DNA of 64,000 nucleotides from positions 1-64,000 of the forward strand of contig CAMAZH010000004.1 of NCBI GenBank assembly GCA_945863035.1. The letters run 5' to 3'. The notes under the pieces are model-generated. The model saw only the letters and a list, made by a program, of their open reading frames with translations, searched no databases and had not been told where the DNA came from. Below are positions 52,310 through 64,000 of this stretch, piece by piece (the first letter of the stretch is position 1; the number at the start of each line of letters is the position of its first letter). Origin of the DNA: Chitinophaga pinensis (GTDB lineage Bacteria > Bacteroidota > Bacteroidia > Bacteroidales > GCA-2748055). A program made the translations under genes and the position numbers.

Positions 52310-52927
52310 CTACAAACCGAGTTGACTGATAAATTGGCTCACTAAGCCTGGATAAAGAAAAATGGGGTAAATTATACCATATATCGCTCCCCAGAGATGG
52401 GCATCGTGGTTGATGTGGTCTTTGTCTTTCCGGCCCATATAGCTGGAATATCCCAGATAGAGTATACCGAAAACGATTCCCGGCATGGGCAGAATCCCGT
52501 AAAGCAGTATTTTTTCCAGAGGGGAAAAGAAAATGCTGGTGAAAAGGACCGCCGAAACAGCCCCCGACGCCCCAACCGCAATATAGTAGGGGTCTTTCCG
52601 CTTCTTCAGGTAAGTCGTTAGGCTTGAAATCACGATAGCTGAAAAATATAAGACCAAAAAACTCACGAAACCGGATTGAATATGCCCTGCGTTTTCAAGA
52701 AAGCCGAACTCCCGCTCTACATATAATCCAAATGAAAACAGAACCACCATGTTTATCAGCAGGTGAATCCAATCGGCATGCAAAAAAGCATGCGAAACAA
52801 ACCTGAAAAACTCTTTGCGCTGAGCAATACGGTAGGGCGAAAAGTCGTAACGACTCATAATTACCGGGTTCTGAAATGCAATGAATGAAACAATTGCAGT
52901 GAGAATAACCAATGTGATTGTCACCAT
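52310..52927 (-). CDS. Rhomboid family intramembrane serine protease
   Basis: A 205-residue, six-helix membrane protease. The catalytic serine is S121 in the GASGAV motif and the base is H177 in HDAHLWGAIYG; the loop-1 and helix-2 block HAFLHADWIHLLINM is also typical, with the conserved HxxxN. It would cleave transmembrane substrates within the inner membrane. The ATG at 52927 lies 2 bases after the holA stop; a TTG at 52933 overlapping that stop (TTGA) is the alternative. The substrate is unknown. Confidence 0.9.
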   Translation of the reverse strand: MVTITLVILTAIVSFIAFQNPVIMSRYDFSPYRIAQRKEFFRFVSHAFLHADWIHLLINMVVLFSFGLYVEREFGFLENAGHIQSGFVSFLVLYFSAIVISSLTTYLKKRKDPYYIAVGASGAVSAVLFTSIFFSPLEKILLYGILPMPGIVFGILYLGYSSYMGRKDKDHINHDAHLWGAIYGIIYPIFLYPGLVSQFISQLGL

Positions 52928-52929
52928 TA

Positions 52930-53952
52930 TCAATGTAGGATTTTAAAAATTAGCTCTTTCAACAAATCTCCGGCGTCGGTCGATGCGTTTCCATACCCTT
53001 TTGATTTAATATCGTACTCGCGCAACATCGAAATGATCTGCAACACTTTAGACGAGTTGTAATTTCTTGCCGCGTTTTCGTATTCGGAAACAAAGAAGGG
53101 ATTTACTTTCAGAGTTGCAGCTACAGTGTTTCTCGATTTATCAGTTAGGCTGTGGTACACTAAGATCTTGCTGAAAAAAAGATATAGCATCGAAAGGGTG
53201 ACGGCAATATTATTGTTTTTCTGGTTTTCGGCGAAATAGTTGATGATCTGGTTGGCTTTCAGGATATCTTTCGTTCCCAGAGCGTTTTGCAGTTCAAAGT
53301 TATTGTACTCTTTGCTGATGCCAATATTTTTCTCAATGTCTTGCGAAGTAATCGTTTTGGTATTGTCGGCCAACACAATTACAAGTTTGTCGAGTTCGTT
53401 TGAAATCCTTGAAAGATCGTTGCCCAGAAACTCGGTTAGAAGAATAGCTGCTTTGGGCTCGATTTTGTAATGCCGTTTGGCAAGGTTGTTTGAAATCCAT
53501 TCGGGAATCTTGTTGTCATAAAGTTTCTTGGATTCGTAATATACTGCGTTTTCCTGAAGAGACTTGTATATAACCTTCCTTTTGTCGAGGCTTTTATACT
53601 TGTAGTTAAAGACTAAAAGGGTTGATTTCAGGGGATTCTTGATGTAATGAATCAGATCGTCGAAGTTTTTGAGCTCCTGTGCCTCTTTCACAATCACCAA
53701 CTGGTAGTTTGCCATCATGGGGAAACGGCGCGCAATATTGGTTACAGCAGCGGCGTCCGCGTCCTTACCGTAGACAACGGTTTGGTTGAACGACTTCTCC
53801 GCTTCCGTTAGCACATTTTGCATGATATATTCGGTAAGCTTATCGATATAATAAGGCTCCTCACCGCACAAAAAATAAATGGGGCGATAGATCTTATTTT
53901 TAAGATCCTTGAATAACTGTTCAATGCTGATGCTGGTTTGAGGACTGGCCAT
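52930..53952 (-). CDS. holA: DNA polymerase III delta subunit
   Basis: HolA is the clamp-loader subunit that opens the sliding clamp. The 340-residue protein has the usual start PIYFLCGEEPYYIDKLTEYI, a central three-domain AAA-like arrangement with LVIVKEAQELKNFDDLIHYI, and the C-terminal helical collar. Sequence identity in this family is low, but FLCGEEPYYID and the position of FLGNDLSRISNELDKL are characteristic. It is second in a four-gene operon, 5 bases after the AMP nucleosidase gene. Confidence 0.9.
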   Translation of the reverse strand: MASPQTSISIEQLFKDLKNKIYRPIYFLCGEEPYYIDKLTEYIMQNVLTEAEKSFNQTVVYGKDADAAAVTNIARRFPMMANYQLVIVKEAQELKNFDDLIHYIKNPLKSTLLVFNYKYKSLDKRKVIYKSLQENAVYYESKKLYDNKIPEWISNNLAKRHYKIEPKAAILLTEFLGNDLSRISNELDKLVIVLADNTKTITSQDIEKNIGISKEYNNFELQNALGTKDILKANQIINYFAENQKNNNIAVTLSMLYLFFSKILVYHSLTDKSRNTVAATLKVNPFFVSEYENAARNYNSSKVLQIISMLREYDIKSKGYGNASTDAGDLLKELIFKILH

Positions 53953-55246: not shown

Positions 55247-55759
55247 TTGGAGGAAATACTCCGATAACCATTGTTCTCCCTTTTTTATCCAATCTTTTTT
55301 CTGCCCGGTAATCACATAGCCCTGCTTTATAAACAGATTGAGGCTTTCCTTGTTGTCTTCGCAAATATTGCAGTACAGCTGCTTCAGCCCCAGTGTTCCA
55401 AATGCATACTCCCTGAGGCTCTCCAAAGCTTCAGTAGCAAAACCCTGATTGCGGTCCTGCTCATCACCAATGAGAATCCCAACGCCCGCTCTCTGGTTAA
55501 ACGGGTCGAAATCAAACAGGTCGATTGCGCCGATAATTGAAGCATTGGATTTCTTTTGAATAACCAGGCGAAGTTGTTTTGCTTCAAAGATATCCTGATG
55601 CGCCTGCTCCATATATTTTTTTAAGGTGTACTTTGAAAACGGGGTAAGCGTATTGCTTAAATGCCAAATGGCAGGGTCGTTTTCCCAGATATACAAAATA
55701 TCAAGATCTTCGGGTTCAAGTGCGCGAAGCTGAATACGGGAATTCTCGAGAATCTGCAT
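55232..55759 (-). CDS. GNAT N-acetyltransferase, SpeG/RimJ-like
   Basis: A 175-residue acetyltransferase. It begins with the RimJ/RimL pattern IQLRALEPEDLDILYIWEND and carries the acetyl-CoA loop RNQGFATEAL after GVGILIGDEQD, then the LGLKQLYCNICEDNKESLNLF segment. The pattern is close to spermidine or protein N-acetyltransferases, but the acceptor is not identifiable. The ATG at 55759 is preferred to the in-frame ATG at 55786, because the longer N-terminus MHSRKILSI is not typical. It lies downstream of the propeller genes, in the same direction. Confidence 0.82.
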   Translation of the reverse strand: MQILENSRIQLRALEPEDLDILYIWENDPAIWHLSNTLTPFSKYTLKKYMEQAHQDIFEAKQLRLVIQKKSNASIIGAIDLFDFDPFNQRAGVGILIGDEQDRNQGFATEALESLREYAFGTLGLKQLYCNICEDNKESLNLFIKQGYVITGQKKDWIKKGEQWLSEYFLQLVRI

Positions 55760-55827
55760 AATGGACAATATTTTACGGGAGTGCAATTGAATCTTAAATA
55801 GAAACTATAAGGAAAAGTTATTCGTCT

Positions 55828-57279
55828 CTACTGATCTTCATAAAGTACGTTAAACGATTTCCCCTCAGAGGATTTGGCTTTGAAAGAGTCAGTCTTGTTA
55901 TCATAGCTCACTTCAATCTTTTCATTGCTTTCACTGACTGTCAAAGTAATTGTAAATTTCTTATCGAATTTTGGATCAGTTGAAATCCGGGGAGCCGTGA
56001 AAGGAAGTATTTCCAATTTATAGATATCTTCTTTTCCGAGACCGCTATCGTCAAAAAGGGTCATGTAGGCGGTTTTCCCATTAGTTAAAGGGAAATAGCC
56101 TATGTCGTCATTAGTGGTGTTAACGGGATAGCCAAGATTGATGGCATCTTCGAATTGGTTGTATCTATTTATAAGGGAGTAAAACACATCAAATCCCCCC
56201 ATGTTGAAATGCCCTTTTGAGCTAAAGAACAGGGTTTTTCCGTCACCAGACATTTGCGGGGTTTCTTCGTCAAACTCGGTGTTTATGGTCGACCCGAGGT
56301 TTTCTGCGGGTCCCCAATCACCAACTGACTGTTTTCTGGAAACAAAGATATCAAGTCCGCCAAAACTCTCGCTTCGGTTACTTGTAAAGTATAAATTTTT
56401 GCCATCGGGCGATAGGGAGGCAAATGTTTCGTTGCTCTTTGTGTTGATGTTTTTGCTAAGGGGAATGGCTTTGCTCCAAAGATTTCCATCAAATTTGCTT
56501 ACATAGATATCGCTGTTGTTGTTGTCTTGTTGTACAAGAAGCAATTCTTTGCCATCCGCGGAAAGAAAAGTTGGCCTCATATCCCCATCGGAGCCGATCT
56601 GGGGTGTGATATTTATCGGGATGCTCCACACTCCATCGGTTTTGTGTGAGTACATGACAGCCTCATAGAATTTCTGGCTGTTCATAAACACCATGATGTT
56701 TTCATCCGACGACAGAACAGGTGAATAATCGGATGAGGATGTGTTAACAGGAGAGCCAACATTCGTTTTGGCAAGGTTGAGAGGGGAGTCCTTAATGATT
56801 TTTGCACGCTCGCAAATTTTAATCTCGGCTTCAACAATCCTTATGTTGTATTTCTTCTCGAAATCCTTGATGCTTTTAAACCGCTCGTAACTGTCGAGCG
56901 CCTTATCGAGATCATTGTTCATGCGGTATGCGTTGCCAAGATAAAACCAGGCATGATGCGGGGCTTTATTTTCGTCCAGGTCTTTGGGACGATACTTCAT
57001 CGTGATATTCATCACCGCCTTTTCAAGATATTCAATTGCCTTTGACTCTTGTCCCCGTATATTAAGATAGGTCATCCCGGTGCGAAAATTATAATTCGCG
57101 TTATCGGGTTGGCGTTTGGTTATCTTGAGAAAAAGAAACAAAGCTTCCTCGTATTCGCCGGTAGAAAAGAAATATTCAGCATCATCAAAAAGATCATCAA
57201 TATCATCCTGATCCTTCTGCGCATTAGCCAGGTTGAAGCTAAAAAATAGAATTCCAAGGATATAAAGTATTCTTCGCAT
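55828..57279 (-). CDS. TPR-like / PD40 propeller periplasmic protein (soluble paralogue)
   Basis: A 483-residue exported protein with signal peptide (about 1-20, cleaved after ANAQ). Residues 25-155 are helical TPR-like repeats (DAEYFFSTGEYEEALFLFLK; YFLGNAYRMNNDLDKALDSYERF type). Residues 175-430 are a PD40/WD40-like beta-propeller with blade motifs such as LSPDGKNLYFTSNRSESFGG and SGDGKTLFFSSKGHFNMGG. It has a short beta C-terminus but no OmpA domain. It follows the OmpA paralogue after 30 bases and is likely co-transcribed. No activity is known; the scaffold recalls the T9SS component PorE without its OmpA part. Confidence 0.78.
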   Translation of the reverse strand: MRRILYILGILFFSFNLANAQKDQDDIDDLFDDAEYFFSTGEYEEALFLFLKITKRQPDNANYNFRTGMTYLNIRGQESKAIEYLEKAVMNITMKYRPKDLDENKAPHHAWFYLGNAYRMNNDLDKALDSYERFKSIKDFEKKYNIRIVEAEIKICERAKIIKDSPLNLAKTNVGSPVNTSSSDYSPVLSSDENIMVFMNSQKFYEAVMYSHKTDGVWSIPINITPQIGSDGDMRPTFLSADGKELLLVQQDNNNSDIYVSKFDGNLWSKAIPLSKNINTKSNETFASLSPDGKNLYFTSNRSESFGGLDIFVSRKQSVGDWGPAENLGSTINTEFDEETPQMSGDGKTLFFSSKGHFNMGGFDVFYSLINRYNQFEDAINLGYPVNTTNDDIGYFPLTNGKTAYMTLFDDSGLGKEDIYKLEILPFTAPRISTDPKFDKKFTITLTVSESNEKIEVSYDNKTDSFKAKSSEGKSFNVLYEDQ

Positions 57280-57309
57280 AGTTTATTTGTAACCTGTACT
57301 AGATTAACA

Positions 57310-59154
57310 CTAATTCGCCTTTAATTGTTCAGGTACAGGAACTTCCTCGATTAACAGAAGCGCTCCTCCAAGCTCAAGAATCCGGAACTCAACTCTTCTG
57401 TTAAACTTGCGGCCTTCAAGAGCATCCTTACCATCAGGGAAATTATTGATAGCGATGTTTTCGGATTCGCTGAAGCCTTTTAATTTAAGCCTGTCTGTGC
57501 TGATCCCCTTAGCGATGAGGTAATCGTTTACCGCCTTGGCACGTTTTTCGGAGAGCATCTGATTGTATGCGTAATCACCCAAAGCATCGGTGTAACCTCT
57601 GACCTCAAGGCTTAGAAGCGGGTAATCGTTAAGAGCCTTCGCCAACTCATCGAGTTTTTCTTTTGCTGTCTCAGTCAGGGAATAGCTGTCAAAACCAAAG
57701 AACACCGGCTTGATGAAATATTTGAATGATGGGGCTTTGGGTTCTGCCACAGCAACAACTTCTTCAACAACAGGTTTCTTTTCGGGCACAACCTCGGCAA
57801 CAACCTCTTCAACAAGGGGCGTTTCCACAACAGGGGTTTCAATAACGGGCTGAACAGCGGCAACTGTCTCGTCTTGGGGTAATACCTTAATATAATAGAG
57901 GTCGCCTTCCCCAAAGCCGCTTGCATCATAAAGTGTAAGATATCCTCCCTTTTGTTGGTTGTCGGGGAAGAAAAAGAGTTCGTCGTCGGTGGTGTTTATC
58001 GGGTAAGGTAAGGCCTGCGGTGCTGACCATGATTTGTTGTCCTGCAGCTCCGAGAAAAAAACATCGTATCCTCCAATGGTTGAGTGGCCCTGGGACGAGA
58101 AGTACAAGGTTTTTCCATCTGCGCAGATAAATGGGGTTTCCTCATTGAGAGGAGTGTTGATGCTGGTACCCAAATTTACAGGGGTGGACCAATCCCCGGA
58201 TTCGGAAAGTGAGGAGCTGTAAATATCCATTCCTCCTGATCCTCCAGTGCGGTTACTTGTAAAAAACAGCGTTTTACCATCGGGGGAGATGGAAGCGTGC
58301 GATTCGAAAAATTTGGTGTTTATGTTCTTGCCCAGCGATCTGGAGGGATTCCATCGCCCCATGCTGTAGTCGCTGACAAGGATGTCGCCGTCGAAGTTGT
58401 TGATTCTTACAAGGAACAACTGCGAGCCATCGAAGGAAAGTGACGAAACATACTGGTTTCCGTCCGATTCAATCTGTGGGGTGATATTAATCGGGTTCGA
58501 CCAGTTCCCGTTGATCTTTTTAACGAAAAAAGCTGCGTCATAAAATTTCTGGGCAGTCATGAAGGCCATAGAATTCTCATCCCCAGCGAGTACTCCCTGA
58601 AAGTTGTTCAAACTGGTATTAAAACGTTTGCCCATATTTTCCTTGAAAATCGGGGATGGGTTTTTGATGGCGAGCTTAGCCCGGTTGCACGATTCAATCT
58701 GCTGGTTGGCATATTCGATGTCGGCAGGGCTTGGCTTAACAGCTGAGTTTATAAACGCATTGTACGATTCGATGGCTTTATCAAGCTGATTATCGATTCG
58801 GTAAGCGTTTCCAAGGTAGAGCAAGGCGTCAGCCGGCGCAAAAACCTCGTTATAGCTCCCTTCCTTATAATTTTCGGAGACATTGGTGGAGGCCTTCTCC
58901 AAATATGGGATGGCTTTTTCCTTTTGGCCGGGTATGTTCAGATAGCAAACCCCGATCCGGTAATTAATATTTGAGTTATCCTGAAAGCCTGCATTATATA
59001 CTTTTTGGAAAGAAAACAAAGCTTCTGAATAATCTTCTTCCGCTAGAAAGAATTCCGCATCAAAAAAATCTTCCCTTACCAGGTCTTTTTGAGCGCTTAC
59101 ATAAAGAAACCCGCTAAGGATAAAGAATAAGAGAATGGATACACGTTTTTTCAT
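57310..59154 (-). CDS. TPR-like / PD40 propeller / OmpA protein (peptidoglycan-binding paralogue)
   Basis: A 614-residue exported protein (from the ATG at 59154; an in-frame ATG at 59181 lies in the -7 box). Signal peptide about 1-20, cleaved near VSAQ. TPR-like repeats (about 25-150), a PD40 propeller (about 165-415; LSFDGSQLFLV, ISPDGKTLFFTSNR, CADGKTLYFSSQGHSTIGG), a Pro/Val/Glu-rich linker (about 430-475), and an OmpA domain (about 490-595) with FFGFDSYSLTE, VRGYTDALGD and the diaminopimelate-binding Arg of NRRVEFRIL. It should anchor to peptidoglycan in the periplasm. PorE of the type IX secretion system has the same domain order, but this could be another family member. Confidence 0.82.
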   Translation of the reverse strand: MKKRVSILLFFILSGFLYVSAQKDLVREDFFDAEFFLAEEDYSEALFSFQKVYNAGFQDNSNINYRIGVCYLNIPGQKEKAIPYLEKASTNVSENYKEGSYNEVFAPADALLYLGNAYRIDNQLDKAIESYNAFINSAVKPSPADIEYANQQIESCNRAKLAIKNPSPIFKENMGKRFNTSLNNFQGVLAGDENSMAFMTAQKFYDAAFFVKKINGNWSNPINITPQIESDGNQYVSSLSFDGSQLFLVRINNFDGDILVSDYSMGRWNPSRSLGKNINTKFFESHASISPDGKTLFFTSNRTGGSGGMDIYSSSLSESGDWSTPVNLGTSINTPLNEETPFICADGKTLYFSSQGHSTIGGYDVFFSELQDNKSWSAPQALPYPINTTDDELFFFPDNQQKGGYLTLYDASGFGEGDLYYIKVLPQDETVAAVQPVIETPVVETPLVEEVVAEVVPEKKPVVEEVVAVAEPKAPSFKYFIKPVFFGFDSYSLTETAKEKLDELAKALNDYPLLSLEVRGYTDALGDYAYNQMLSEKRAKAVNDYLIAKGISTDRLKLKGFSESENIAINNFPDGKDALEGRKFNRRVEFRILELGGALLLIEEVPVPEQLKAN

Positions 59155-59178
59155 AGTGCAGAGCTTTTGGTCAGTTAC

Positions 59179-59186
59179 CAAATTTA
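59179..59186 (-). promoter_or_regulatory. -7 box of the OmpA-propeller gene pair
   Basis: On the minus strand TAAATTTG matches TAnnTTTG, 24 bases before the ATG at 59154. No good -33 box is at 19-21 bases. The 400-base gap 59155-59555 is AT-rich and holds no other recognisable feature or gene. Confidence 0.5.
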
Positions 59187-59555
59187 GTAATTATCACGTT
59201 ACAAATGAAAAATTATCATTTTTATTATTAAAGGGCCTTGCCCGATTTGTTCATCATAAGGGTTTTTTACCGCATCCGATTTGCTTTTTTAGGGCTGTCG
59301 CTGTAAAAAATCAGACGGCTCGCATTGTTGGTTTAGTGAGAACCGGCGTTGCAAAACACTCTTTATCAATCGGATAATGCCTAGCTAACAGGACTTGCAC
59401 ATAACTTTAGCGCCCTGATAACATTAAGACAAGAATACTGTTGAAAAATATTATTAATATTTGTATGTTTCTTCTCAAATCTTTTTCTTTCCCTTCGTTA
59501 CAAGCCTACCCAAGTCAAAATCAAAGGCCTGAAGAATGCCTCCAGGGATTTTCAT

Positions 59556-62500
59556 CTAAGCTTCTGTCTGTTCTTTCTTTTTCTTTCTGCGAAAAAGGAT
59601 AATAAGGATGATGATAATACCGGTTAAGCCAATGGCTCCGAAACCAAACAATTTTCCCTTACCGGTGGGACGTTGAACGGAGGGTCCCTGTTCCGCCAAC
59701 ATCTCATTGCGGGCTTTGTCTTCCCCGGAGATAAGCAATTGGAGAATTGCATTCCAGACATCTTCCATGCTGTAGCCGAATTCAGCAGCATGTTCTGCCA
59801 GATATTTCATGAGATCCTCAATGCTTCTAATCCCTTCTTTCTCAAGATCAAGCTGATCGAGTAAGCGAGCTAAGCCCACACTTGCGAACTCCCTGAGATT
59901 GGCAATGAAGTCTTCCAGTTTTGCCCTGCCCAGCACCTTATCGATTAATTTGAAAACGTCCTCTTCGGAATAACCGTTTGCCGATGCATTATTTAACAGG
60001 TATTCAATCAAACCCGAAACGGAGGTGATACCCGTTTCCTTCAGGTCGATATTCTGAAGGAATTCTTTAAGCGCACCGTCTGAATTTTCGATTAGCTTAC
60101 CGAGAAATTTATTCAGCGAGTTATCTGCAAGATATGTCGAAAATAACTTGTTGATTTCCGAGGCCGAAAGTTTTTTGTTTGTTGCCGACTCAGCAAGAAG
60201 GTAATCATAAAGATCAGCTGCGGATCGAAATTCCTTAACAGGAAGTTTTGTTGAGTTGAGGATTTTATTCAGTTCGCCGAGAGAACCCGATTGCAGTGCC
60301 GGAAGAATGTCTGCTAAACGGGTATCGGTGGCTTTGAGCAACAGCCGAATCATGTTCTCTTCCTTAACGACTCCTTCGGAAGCTTTTTTCAGAAGATAGG
60401 ATATGAGCTCGGAGCGATCATCAATGCCGTTAGCCTTCAAGTCCAACTTTTCAAGGTACACCTTGGTTTCTGGATCTGCCAAACGGATGAGCTTTTTAAG
60501 AAGCAGCTCAAGGTCGGTTGCAGCCGTGTAATCCTCTAAAAGTTTGTAAACATCGCCTTTTGTGTAACCAAGTTGATCTGCATTATCAAGAAGATAGCGA
60601 ATAAGTTCATCGAATGATTTTATTCCTTCCTTCTCCAAATCCAGGTTTTCAAGAGTTTTTTTCAGGTTTCCGTCTGAATAAAGAATCAGCCGGTCGACAA
60701 CGTCTTCAAGGTCACCCGAATATGCGAGTTTTAACAATACGTTGTTGATATCGTCCTGTGTGAAGCCGTTTCTTTCTGCCTCGGATTTCAGGTAGTCGAT
60801 AAACTCCTCCCTTGACCCAAAAGAATGCTCGTTAAGATTGGTCTTCTCAAGAAACGTCTTCAAATTGCCTGTTGCGAGCGCAGCCATTTTTTGACGCAGA
60901 TCTTCGATTTCAGCGATTTGGTTATATGTGTATTTTTGCAGCAGACTGTCGACTTCTTCGCTGGTGTAACCTTTCAAATCTGCATTTGCATAGATATGCG
61001 AGATTAACTCTTCGGCCGTGTAAATGTTTTCCTTCTGAAGGTCGATACTTGTAAGGAAATCTTTCAGAGCTCCCTCTTCGGATAAGGCAATAAGTTTGCC
61101 CAGAACTTCCGATGCATCCCTGCTGACGGCCAGATTTGTCAAGGCACCAAGCACTTCAGCCTCCGTAAAAGCTTTACTGCTTGCATTGCGATACAGAGAA
61201 ACGGCAAAATCCTGAGGGCTGCCGGGGGTGAGAGTCGACAAATCCAACCTTTTCAGATGCGATTTGAGTTCTCCCTCATCAGCCGAATGAATCAACTTGT
61301 TGATAAACAGATTTTGATCGTTACTGCCATTTGATCCAACAGTTGAAAGGGCTTTTACAACATCCTCACTGGTATAGTTGTTTACATTGGAGTTCCTGAC
61401 CAGATAATCCACTGCCTGGTATGGGGTGTTGATAGCATTCGATTTGGTATCAAGTGCGGAAATGACGGTTTTCAGGTTTCCTTCCGAAGCGTTTTTCAGG
61501 TGTGCGAGAAACTCTTCAAGATCTTTTTTGCTAATCATCTCCGTATACAAGCGATCAACATCCTGGGCACTGTAACCGAGTTTCTCCGCATTATCGTAAA
61601 GGTATTTGAATAGCTCAGTTGTGTTGGTGATGCCTTCCTTTTGCAGATCCAGGTTTTGCAAAACCTCCTTTAAGCGGCCATCTGCACGGCTGGCCAAATC
61701 ATTTGTCAGAGCGTTAATGTTGTCCTGGGCAGGTTCCTTCGCATCCTTTTCCAACTCCGGGTTATCATCATCTGAGACTTTAGCCGGTGCGGTCTGATTC
61801 GAATCCTTGCCATTGTTGTAGATAACGGTTGCGGTTTTCGTAACCCGATTGCCATCGGGATCAGTGAGACTAAACTCAATTTGGTTGGTACCGGGTTTGG
61901 GTCTGAATTCAAAGCTCTGATTGCGTCTGTCGACTTTTACCGTATCGATTTTTATCAATACGGAATCGAGATATTGCTTAACCACAATCACAGATCCCTT
62001 TTCAGCTTCATAATCGAGTTTTACTGTTTTCCCTTTTGAAACCGTAATGAGGGAATCTTTGAGTATGAGCAACTTGTTAAGTTCGTCCTGCGACAGTTTT
62101 GCCACTACGGGAATCAACTTAATCTGTTCGCTTAGCGTAATGCCCGAATGGGGTGTGTTCGGACTTACTTCGAGTGATTTGATCAATCGTTCAAACCGTT
62201 CGCTGTCGAAAACCATGGAGTATTTACCCGCAGGGACGCTGAAATTGAACTTGCCCTGCTCATTGGGGTGAACCATTGCCAGGGTATCGCCTGAGCTTTG
62301 GCTTATTACGTTTATTGCGATTTCCTTACCGTCGATTTTCTGTCCCGAATAATTCAAGATGCCGCTGATGTCATACCTTCTGGGGTGGTCGGCTGTATAA
62401 ACCTTGTAGCGGTAGATATCGTGCCTGCCATAACCGGTTTCCTTATAAACCGGGAAATATGCGATCTCGCCATCCCTGACCGGGCAAAAGAAAATATCGT

Positions 62501-63665
62501 CATCGGTAGTGTTCACGGGATATCCCATATTCAGAGGGGAAGCCCAGGTGTTGTCGGATTTCAGGGCAGTCATGAAAACATCATACCCTCCCATGTTGTA
62601 ATGTCCGTAGGAAGAATAGAAAAGTCTGCGGCCATTCTCGGTAATGAAAGGACATTCCTCGTTATATGCGGAATTGACCAACGGTCCAAGGTTTTCTGCA
62701 GGACCCCAGTCCCCGTTTTCCTGTTTTTTGGATTTATAGATATCCAAACCACCGAATCCACCCTTTCGGTTACTTGTGAAATAGAGGGTGTTGCCGTCTT
62801 TTGTGATGGAAGCGTGCGACTCCCAGTATTTTGTGTTGATGTTCTCGTTTAACTTTACCAGGGGAGTCCAGAGCCCGTTGACAAGCTTGGAACTGTATAG
62901 ATTCCCAATAAAATCGTCGTTCCTGTAAACAAAAAGGGATGTGCCGTCATAGGAAAGCCCTGTGGGATAAACGTCCCCGTCAACGCCCAGTTCGGGGGTG
63001 ATGTTCCTCGGGGGAGTCCATGCACCGTTTATGTTTTCGGTATAAAAAACGGCATCGTAGAACTGTAACTTGGAGATGAACACCATTTTTGTTTCGTCAC
63101 CCGAAACGGCTGGGTTTTTGTCAGCAAAGCGGGTATTAACCTGGTTGGACAGCAATTCCACATCCATATCAATCGGCTTTTTCATGAGCTTTTCTGCAGC
63201 ATCGCAGGCAGCCAGCTGTTCGAGTACCAATTGATCGTCGTAAATTTCGCTATCCATCTGCGACTGAAACTTCTTATACGATTCGCGGGCTTTATCCAGT
63301 TCATTGTTAACGCGATATGCGTTTCCCAGAAAAAAAAGCGCTTCGAGAGGAGCTCCCAATTCCTTGTAATTGCTTTCCTTATATTTTGTGTTGATATTTT
63401 TTGCCGCTTTTTCGAGGTAGAACAGCGATTTGTCCTTTTCGTAGGCATTATTCAGATAACACACACCGATTTTGTAGTAAATGTTATAATTGTCGGGATA
63501 GGTCCTGTGCATCCGCAGGTACAAGGGCAATGCCTCATCGAATTCCTCAAACAAATAGTAGGATTCGGCAGCAAGGAAGACCTGCTTCATATCCATGGTT
63601 TGCTGGCTAAATACCGGAAGCAGGAGGCTGAAATAGAAAAATATCAGGCTTATTGTTTTTTTCAT
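59556..63665 (-). CDS. Giant TPR-like / propeller protein with ten 66-residue repeats and a C-terminal membrane anchor
   Basis: A 1369-residue protein. Order: signal peptide 1-20; TPR-like helices 25-155; PD40 propeller 165-425 (LSYDGTSLFVY, ITKDGNTLYFTSNRKGGFGG); prealbumin-like domain 430-515 (DISGILNYSG, VPAGKYSMVF); Ig-like strands 545-617; acidic linker 621-648; ten tandem helical repeats 650-1316 of 65-69 residues; a membrane helix about 1340-1358 and the basic tail RRKKKKEQTEA. The topology implies a periplasmic body with a cytoplasmic tail, so it is inner-membrane anchored, unlike the OmpA paralogue downstream. It is in line with two paralogues but 401 bases away. No catalytic motif was seen. 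I propose a scaffold or adaptor role and do not know its partners. Confidence 0.8.
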   Translation of the reverse strand: MKKTISLIFFYFSLLLPVFSQQTMDMKQVFLAAESYYLFEEFDEALPLYLRMHRTYPDNYNIYYKIGVCYLNNAYEKDKSLFYLEKAAKNINTKYKESNYKELGAPLEALFFLGNAYRVNNELDKARESYKKFQSQMDSEIYDDQLVLEQLAACDAAEKLMKKPIDMDVELLSNQVNTRFADKNPAVSGDETKMVFISKLQFYDAVFYTENINGAWTPPRNITPELGVDGDVYPTGLSYDGTSLFVYRNDDFIGNLYSSKLVNGLWTPLVKLNENINTKYWESHASITKDGNTLYFTSNRKGGFGGLDIYKSKKQENGDWGPAENLGPLVNSAYNEECPFITENGRRLFYSSYGHYNMGGYDVFMTALKSDNTWASPLNMGYPVNTTDDDIFFCPVRDGEIAYFPVYKETGYGRHDIYRYKVYTADHPRRYDISGILNYSGQKIDGKEIAINVISQSSGDTLAMVHPNEQGKFNFSVPAGKYSMVFDSERFERLIKSLEVSPNTPHSGITLSEQIKLIPVVAKLSQDELNKLLILKDSLITVSKGKTVKLDYEAEKGSVIVVKQYLDSVLIKIDTVKVDRRNQSFEFRPKPGTNQIEFSLTDPDGNRVTKTATVIYNNGKDSNQTAPAKVSDDDNPELEKDAKEPAQDNINALTNDLASRADGRLKEVLQNLDLQKEGITNTTELFKYLYDNAEKLGYSAQDVDRLYTEMISKKDLEEFLAHLKNASEGNLKTVISALDTKSNAINTPYQAVDYLVRNSNVNNYTSEDVVKALSTVGSNGSNDQNLFINKLIHSADEGELKSHLKRLDLSTLTPGSPQDFAVSLYRNASSKAFTEAEVLGALTNLAVSRDASEVLGKLIALSEEGALKDFLTSIDLQKENIYTAEELISHIYANADLKGYTSEEVDSLLQKYTYNQIAEIEDLRQKMAALATGNLKTFLEKTNLNEHSFGSREEFIDYLKSEAERNGFTQDDINNVLLKLAYSGDLEDVVDRLILYSDGNLKKTLENLDLEKEGIKSFDELIRYLLDNADQLGYTKGDVYKLLEDYTAATDLELLLKKLIRLADPETKVYLEKLDLKANGIDDRSELISYLLKKASEGVVKEENMIRLLLKATDTRLADILPALQSGSLGELNKILNSTKLPVKEFRSAADLYDYLLAESATNKKLSASEINKLFSTYLADNSLNKFLGKLIENSDGALKEFLQNIDLKETGITSVSGLIEYLLNNASANGYSEEDVFKLIDKVLGRAKLEDFIANLREFASVGLARLLDQLDLEKEGIRSIEDLMKYLAEHAAEFGYSMEDVWNAILQLLISGEDKARNEMLAEQGPSVQRPTGKGKLFGFGAIGLTGIIIILIILFRRKKKKEQTEA
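59718..61718 (-). repeat. Ten tandem repeats of about 66 codons
   Basis: The repeats start near residues 650, 716, 783, 851, 920, 986, 1052, 1117, 1184 and 1250 of the 1369-residue protein. The consensus has a first helix ending in SDGNLK, a turn LDLEKEGI, the helix ELIxYLLxNA, the turn GYTxEDV and a last helix. The unit lengths are 66, 67, 68, 69, 66, 66, 65, 67, 66 and 67. Units 6, 9, 10 and 1 are closest to consensus; units 2, 3 and 8 are the most diverged. I do not recognise the family. Confidence 0.8.
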
Positions 63666-63744
63666 AATTATTGATTCACTAGTCTTTACTCCAGGTTATT
63701 GAACCGGATGCTTTTTTTAAAAAAAGAGAGCAAAACCGCATATA

Positions 63745-63752
63745 CAAATGTA
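63745..63752 (-). promoter_or_regulatory. -7 box of the giant repeat-protein gene
   Basis: On the minus strand TACATTTG matches TAnnTTTG, about 80 bases before the ATG at 63665. No clear -33 TTTG is seen. The gap 63666-63892 is AT-rich and holds nothing else. Confidence 0.45.
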
Positions 63753-63892
63753 AAAAAATATGTTATATGTTTTTGGTAATATTATGCACAGAACATTCTA
63801 CCCTTGCATATTTTGACCTATCAGCAATCAATCATTGTCAAAACACGTTTTTTGTCGATTAAATATTCAAGCTTTAGGATGCTGTTTTTGAT

Positions 63893-64000
63893 TCAAGCCG
63901 AAAAAACGCTCCTCCAGAAAATCGAAAAATCAACATTCAGTTTGTAATCCCTGGCATATTCAATATTCAGTTTTTCTTTGGTGTCCTGATCCGGGTCGCG
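63893..64000 (-). CDS. 3' end of a probable sugar transferase (polyprenyl glycosylphosphotransferase), partial
   Basis: The window edge cuts this minus-strand frame; only 35 codons and the stop at 63893-63895 are visible. The tail reads DPDQDTKEKLNIEYARDYKL and then a hydrophobic VDFSIFWRSVF. It resembles the C-terminus of bacterial sugar transferases of the WcaJ/PglC type, whose last helix follows a D-x-x-Y segment. The match rests on a short stretch, so the call is tentative. If correct, it would begin a polysaccharide-synthesis region outside this window. Confidence 0.4.
   Translation of the reverse strand, partial: RDPDQDTKEKLNIEYARDYKLNVDFSIFWRSVFSA

Follow-up and report, generated by a model that had tools for sequence, protein, structure and literature searches.

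A PorE-like envelope protein of Bacteroidota with an array of 66-residue, predicted alpha-helical repeats of variable number

Introduction

PorE is an outer-membrane lipoprotein composed of TPR, propeller, carboxypeptidase-regulatory-like (CRD) and OmpA domains (PMC5053529). It has been proposed to act as a compact tether between outer membrane and peptidoglycan, built from the CpoB, TolB and Pal folds (PMC12204202). CHU_0125 is a Pal homologue, and deletion of chu_0125 impairs the outer membrane (PMC5891637). PorE-like multidomain proteins, in which Tol-Pal folds are combined, bear on how Bacteroidota link inner membrane, wall and outer membrane. We describe here a protein with a PorE-like head, named REP (repeat protein), whose C-terminal half is an array of ten diverged units. 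It is the 1369-residue product of an open reading frame (ORF) at positions 59556–63665 (minus strand) of contig CAMAZH010000004.1 (assembly GCA_945863035.1, Chitinophaga pinensis; Bacteroidales in the GTDB lineage), the first 64,000 nucleotides of which were analysed and are referred to as the window. Literature searches returned no description of REP.

Results

REP contains a regular array of ten units

Self-comparison of residues 641–1320 gave a peak at lag 66, with a score of 22.5 (z = 10.7 at this lag), whereas no lag in any of 1000 shuffles scored above 9.6. The units of the array begin at residues 661, 727, 796, 863, 931, 997, 1063, 1128, 1195 and 1261, so that their spacings are 66, 69, 67, 68, 66, 66, 65, 67 and 66 residues. 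A sequence-only reading of the window, made without database searches, had described ten units of 65–69 residues in a regular array, followed by a membrane anchor with a KKKK tail; unit number, coordinates, strand and anchor were all right, and the lag-66 signal exceeded every one of the 1000 shuffles.

The units are diverged, with a mean pairwise identity of 29% (range 17–47%). A hidden Markov model (HMM) built from the odd units recovered all even units, with independent E values (iE) of 5e-6 to 5e-20. The consensus of 189 units reads S-x-G-x-L-K-x-x-L-x-x-L-D-L-E-x-E-G-I-x-S-x-x-E-L-I-x-Y-L-x-x-x-A-x-x-x-G-Y-S-x-E-D-V-x-x-L-L, and its conserved positions (L5, L9, L12, D13, I19, L25, L29, A33, Y38, D42) look mostly like hydrophobic-core or helix-capping residues. 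Because unit 10 lacks the fourth helix and a similar helix precedes unit 1, the natural unit is D-A-B-C rather than A-B-C-D.

The unit matches no catalogued repeat

Among 39 single units compared with Pfam, none gave an acceptable match (best 0.0019, to scattered single families), and the whole protein matched DUF5333 at 4e-5, under that family's cut-off. NCBIfam held no acceptable match to the unit, and the best hit of the unit profile against PDB sequences (E 0.057) was not acceptable either.

Two structural models were made with AlphaFold2 (AF2), both from shallow alignments of units of the window protein and of one closely related protein, L029. Units 4–6 (six rows) were modelled with pLDDT 84.9 and pTM 0.54, and units 9–10 in the D-A-B-C phase (ten rows) with pLDDT 88.5 and pTM 0.74. 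The latter model is all alpha, with a short helix within the LDLExEGI loop and no strand. Foldseek searches of the PDB with the two models gave best E values of 1.6 and 1.5, the listed TM-scores being at most about 0.3, and a viral structure library contained nothing that matched them. The earlier description of the repeat as unrecognised therefore stood up, since no Pfam repeat family matched strongly, no matching structure was found in the PDB, and the predicted structures were confident, helical and repeating rather than disordered.

Two known classes were considered specifically. An EF-hand pair was rejected: the LDLExEGIxSxEEL loop has the right length, but the ligands and the strand are missing. 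Of the metal-ligand positions of an EF-hand loop, position 1 is D/N in 82% of cases and position 12 is E/D in 65%, but position 3 is E in 31% and position 5 is E in 33%. Pfam EF-hand models reached E 0.02 at best, in 1 of the 39 units. Membership of a known solenoid family (TPR, HEAT or other catalogued repeats) was likewise discarded, as the unit had no significant profile or structure match to any. That the modelled unit represents a new fold, as judged against PDB and viral structures, should be taken as a lead, not as a result. To repeat-family databases the REP unit would be an addition.

Unit number varies between orthologues at one locus

Detectable units were present in 34 of 393 sampled genomes of the order (probably Bacteroidales), across 11 families, so that REP is not unique to this genome. 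When 396 genomes were drawn from the whole phylum, units were found at E 1e-4 in the window's own genome only. A scan of genome contigs retrieved one near-identical relative, and REP is usually present as one gene per genome.

REP orthologues at the same locus within the order have 0–12 units, as counted with the HMM plus gap arithmetic (gaps of about 132, 198 or 264 residues were taken as missed units). Unit number is fixed in several families: 12 in f43 (3/3 members), 6 in f42 (5/5), 5 in f14 (5/5) and 4 in f112 (4/4); in f37, three of four members have 5. The window's own family includes proteins with 10, 7, 5, 4, 3, 2, 1 and 0 units. The 12 units of f43 contradict an expansion confined to the window's lineage. 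Five same-locus orthologues (736, 724, 736, 793 and 695 residues) have no unit at all, a short low-complexity linker leading directly to the transmembrane (TM) helix and basic tail. A sixth orthologue (L140:4492-6807, minus strand) carries a degenerate remnant before the TM helix, apparently one or two decayed units, possibly an array loss in progress.

A tree of the heads, made by a quick method from one gene, with some open forks and with L140 scored as absent, placed the array as ancestral, with about five presence/absence changes within the window's family. Ratios of nonsynonymous to synonymous substitutions (dN/dS) between the window gene and L029 were 0.02–0.03 in the TPR, propeller and CRD parts, 0.084 in the array and 0.13–0.27 in the flanking linkers. 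The array is under purifying selection, less strict than that on the head. The sequence-only reading was thus borne out in taking the repeat for old and selected (one order, at least 11 of its families; dN/dS 0.084), whereas its suggestion that the array spans toward the outer membrane does not hold as a fixed requirement, given the spread of unit numbers at one locus. A periplasmic ruler of fixed length is unlikely for the same reason.

Alpha-helical repeats commonly serve as binding surfaces, and the array might be mainly a scaffold, with an enzyme, peptidoglycan or glycan as the ligand bound by each unit, and copy number would then set valence and not length. The selection on the array and the divergence of its units, which would permit a different partner for each, are consistent with this. 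However, no surface motif is apparent among the mostly hydrophobic or helix-capping conserved positions, and head and anchor stay intact where the array has been lost completely. Nor do units correspond by position between families: the best matches of a window unit elsewhere ignore its place in the array. We consider a scaffold possible but unlikely.

The head is PorE-like, but REP is not PorE

The N-terminal half of REP matched the NCBIfam CHU_0125 profile (NF053607) at 5e-43 (147 bits, residues 23–506; cut-off 620) and the PorE profile (NF052230) at 3e-31 (108.6 bits, residues 97–423; cut-off 600), in both cases below the family cut-off. The head combination of PorE, TPR, PD40 and CRD, is found in REP, with PD40 above the Pfam cut-off and TPR and CRD below theirs. 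Pfam detected no C-terminal OmpA-like domain in REP, and its signal sequence, MKKTISLIFFYFSLLLPVFSQQ, has no lipobox cysteine. The true porE of this genome is a separate gene (G000:C209:130-2058) scoring 712.6 bits, above the family cut-off. We therefore rejected the possibility that REP is the PorE orthologue; by its domain matches it is a member of a PorE-like TPR-PD40 family. With about 20 places that match the PorE profile, the TPR-PD40/OmpA superfamily is large in this genome.

The signal has a type I site, after which Gln 21 would be the mature N-terminus. This fits the Q-rule of Bacteroidetes (PMC5837995). Similar N-termini were found by a simple pattern in 39 of 46 REP sequences, several of the others being truncated ORFs. 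A short low-complexity linker lies before the array and a juxtamembrane segment after it. A TM helix followed by at least three K/R is present in 50 of 52 REP proteins, and one of the two exceptions is cut by a contig end. By the positive-inside rule, the basic tail is presumably cytoplasmic. The array had been placed earlier between a propeller/prealbumin part and a membrane anchor, and PD40, a CRD-like domain and a C-terminal TM helix were indeed found there; the TPR part, the Ig-like part, the kinship with PorE and the conserved gene cluster had been missed.

The PorE-like head raises the question of whether REP is, like PorE, an accessory of type IX secretion or gliding machinery. SprA, the translocon of the type IX secretion system (T9SS), is present in 13 of 14 genomes tested, including that of the window. 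This link is not specific, because SprA also occurs in two genomes (G005, G007) whose orthologue has no array, and the neighbouring genes surveyed yielded no T9SS gene. As these genomes, in which T9SS is present, also have a separate true porE, we keep such a role as an alternative and not as first choice, and hold it to be quite improbable.

Gene order around REP is conserved

The order lysA, glycosyltransferase, REP, TPR-PD40-OmpA paralogue, TPR-PD40 paralogue is kept across one order, in no fewer than 11 of its families (neighbours in most relatives were surveyed within about 5 kb on each side). The OmpA paralogue adjoins REP in most loci long enough to reveal it; some loci have further TPR-PD40 heads between the two. 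In stretches that extend further, the TPR-PD40 paralogue is followed by a phosphorylase-family gene and holA, and in several of them then by a rhomboid gene. Feature positions in the window are collected in Table 1.

Table 1. Positions of REP, its parts and its conserved neighbours in the window
Feature	Position	Strand	Basis
REP, whole ORF, 1369 aa	59556..63665	-	
Signal peptide, residues 1-20, PVFS|QQTMD	63606..63665	-	sequence; no lipobox Cys
TPR part, about residues 28-150	63216..63584	-	weak, sub-threshold Pfam TPR matches; CHU_0125/PorE profiles span 23-506 / 97-423
PD40 beta-propeller, about residues 170-425	62391..63158	-	PF07676, E 1.6e-15, above cut-off
Prealbumin/carboxypeptidase-regulatory-like domain (CRD), about residues 430-515	62121..62378	-	sub-threshold NOMO transthyretin-like match; CHU_0125 profile to residue 506
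Ig-like domain, about residues 540-617	61815..62048	-	sub-threshold Big_9 and DUF4369 matches
Unit 1 (residues 661-726)	61488..61685	-	
Unit 2 (727-795)	61281..61487	-	
Unit 3 (796-862)	61080..61280	-	
Unit 4 (863-930)	60876..61079	-	modelled
Unit 5 (931-996)	60678..60875	-	modelled
Unit 6 (997-1062), near consensus	60480..60677	-	modelled
Unit 7 (1063-1127)	60285..60479	-	
Unit 8 (1128-1194)	60084..60284	-	
Unit 9 (1195-1260)	59886..60083	-	modelled
Unit 10 (1261-1318), without last helix	59712..59885	-	modelled
Transmembrane helix, residues 1339-1358	59592..59651	-	sequence
Basic tail RRKKKKEQTEA	59559..59591	-	sequence
TPR-PD40-OmpA paralogue, peptidoglycan-binding type, conserved neighbour	57310..59181	-	Pfam OmpA 1.3e-21, PD40 5.3e-19; synteny
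TPR-PD40 paralogue without anchor domain, conserved neighbour	55828..57279	-	Pfam; synteny

Near-locus TPR-PD40 paralogues at L032:879-3437 (minus strand) and L040:6071-8596 (plus strand) have both OmpA and SPOR domains; the same head is thus joined to several wall-binding ends. Those of L094 and L095 have OmpA and a C-terminal region that is SPOR-like by eye. Four f42 loci (L081, L082, L086, L091) contain an extra REP-like head ORF of 672–691 residues between REP and the OmpA paralogue.

About 370 bp (59182–59555) separate REP from its OmpA neighbour, more than most relatives have there. When 55700–64000 was scanned for promoters and terminators, the results were barely above or at the level of shuffles and were not used: the best promoter-like site (59478–59450, 10/12) lies in this gap, and the regional count, only 1.8 standard deviations above shuffles, is no evidence.

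A rhomboid-family gene (52310–52933, minus strand) follows holA in the window, as in seven relatives' loci, one of which (L138) has an array-less REP orthologue. It may reflect ancestral synteny or encode a processing enzyme for an envelope protein. Under the latter hypothesis, the C-terminal TM helix would be a processing signal at which this nearby-encoded rhomboid-type protease frees head and array. Unrelated genes intervene, however, including the phosphorylase-family gene and holA, and one locus (L035) runs about 960 bases past holA without a rhomboid match. No rhombosortase/CTERM sorting motif is apparent before the TM helix (GG_III-CTERM, 11 bits versus a cut-off of 22), and the tail is long and basic, like that of stable anchors. 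Processing of REP is the least probable of the explanations that we considered.

Discussion

The explanation that we favour, and hold to be about evenly balanced, is that REP is an inner-membrane-anchored envelope protein whose PorE/Tol-Pal-like head is held in the periplasm on an adjustable helical arm and works with the peptidoglycan-binding paralogue. The anatomy of REP, the regularity of its repeats, their predicted helical fold, the conserved locus, head and anchor, the purifying selection and the variation of unit number down to loss are observed, whereas the topology, which is read from the sequence, the pairing of the paralogues and the tether function are what we infer. REP would be exported by Sec and fixed in the inner membrane by the C-terminal TM helix and basic tail, head outward. 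A semi-rigid arm of alpha-helical repeats would carry the head (TPR, propeller, CRD and Ig, comparable to CpoB, TolB and CRD in PorE) into the periplasm, where the head would bind envelope partners, most likely the paralogues encoded by the next two genes, one of which has an OmpA domain of the peptidoglycan-binding kind. REP and its partners would then link the inner membrane with the wall, and perhaps also with machinery of the outer membrane, in a Tol-Pal-like or TolA-like manner of opposite polarity. REP retains the head but has a helical arm and a predicted inner-membrane anchor in place of the Pal-like end, which the neighbouring paralogue keeps as OmpA. Read most simply, REP is a tether on the inner-membrane side, its head meeting a wall-bound paralogue.

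The array itself looks like an adjustable arm within the cell envelope. It would set reach and stiffness, whole-unit duplication or loss altering the copy number. Alpha-solenoids rise by about 1 nm per helical hairpin, and by this general figure an array of ten could be some 20 nm long. We put forward tentatively, as rather less likely than the tether itself, a more specific proposal: the 66-residue unit would be an alpha-helical repeat fold that has not been described before and is confined to one Bacteroidota order, and it would form an arm whose evolutionarily adjustable length sets the reach of an inner-membrane-anchored, Tol-Pal-like head towards wall and outer membrane.

Two points weigh against the tether on an arm. 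The arm is not indispensable, because array-less orthologues presumably function with a short low-complexity linker, and the C-terminal TM helix could be a transient sorting signal. Because orthologues at one locus form a natural series of 0, 1–7, 10 and 12 units, the relation of length to function is directly testable. Being conserved and, as predicted, anchored in the inner membrane beside a peptidoglycan-binding paralogue, REP is a specific candidate for the part that is still missing from the envelope link in Bacteroidota, its inner-membrane side.

Comparison with known systems

Several described systems resemble REP in part. TolA of the Tol-Pal system may be likened to it in having an inner-membrane anchor, a helical periplasmic arm and a distal domain that meets propeller/Pal-type partners. 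There is no evidence of homology, and the TM helix of TolA, which contacts TolQ/TolR, is N-terminal, whereas the REP N-terminus is a cleavable-type signal, its only other TM helix is C-terminal, and it carries the propeller itself. The helical arm of TolA is moreover one long helical domain, not a series of tandem units. A role of REP in transducing force, as TolA and TonB do, with a TolQR/ExbBD-type motor to drive it, would agree with its anchor, its long arm and its TolB/CpoB-resembling head, and PorE has been suggested to use force from a TolA/TonB-like protein (PMC12204202). The reversed polarity argues against it, array-less orthologues would have no arm, and no motor gene was seen at the locus (motor genes elsewhere were not searched for); we regard this as very improbable.

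PorE (PG1058; NF052230) shares with REP the TPR-PD40 propeller-CRD head, periplasmic export and occurrence in Bacteroidota. It is, however, an outer-membrane lipoprotein with a C-terminal OmpA domain, where REP has a type I signal, an Ig-like domain, a helical array and, as predicted, an inner-membrane anchor. The CHU_0125-type OmpA-like outer-membrane integrity proteins (NF053607) have the same head architecture, from which REP differs by lacking the OmpA domain. Finally, the array recalls the alpha-solenoid repeats (TPR, HEAT, ARM, Sel1) in being made of tandem, all-helical units, but differs from them in that each 66-residue REP unit would comprise four helices and an LDLExEGIxS loop.

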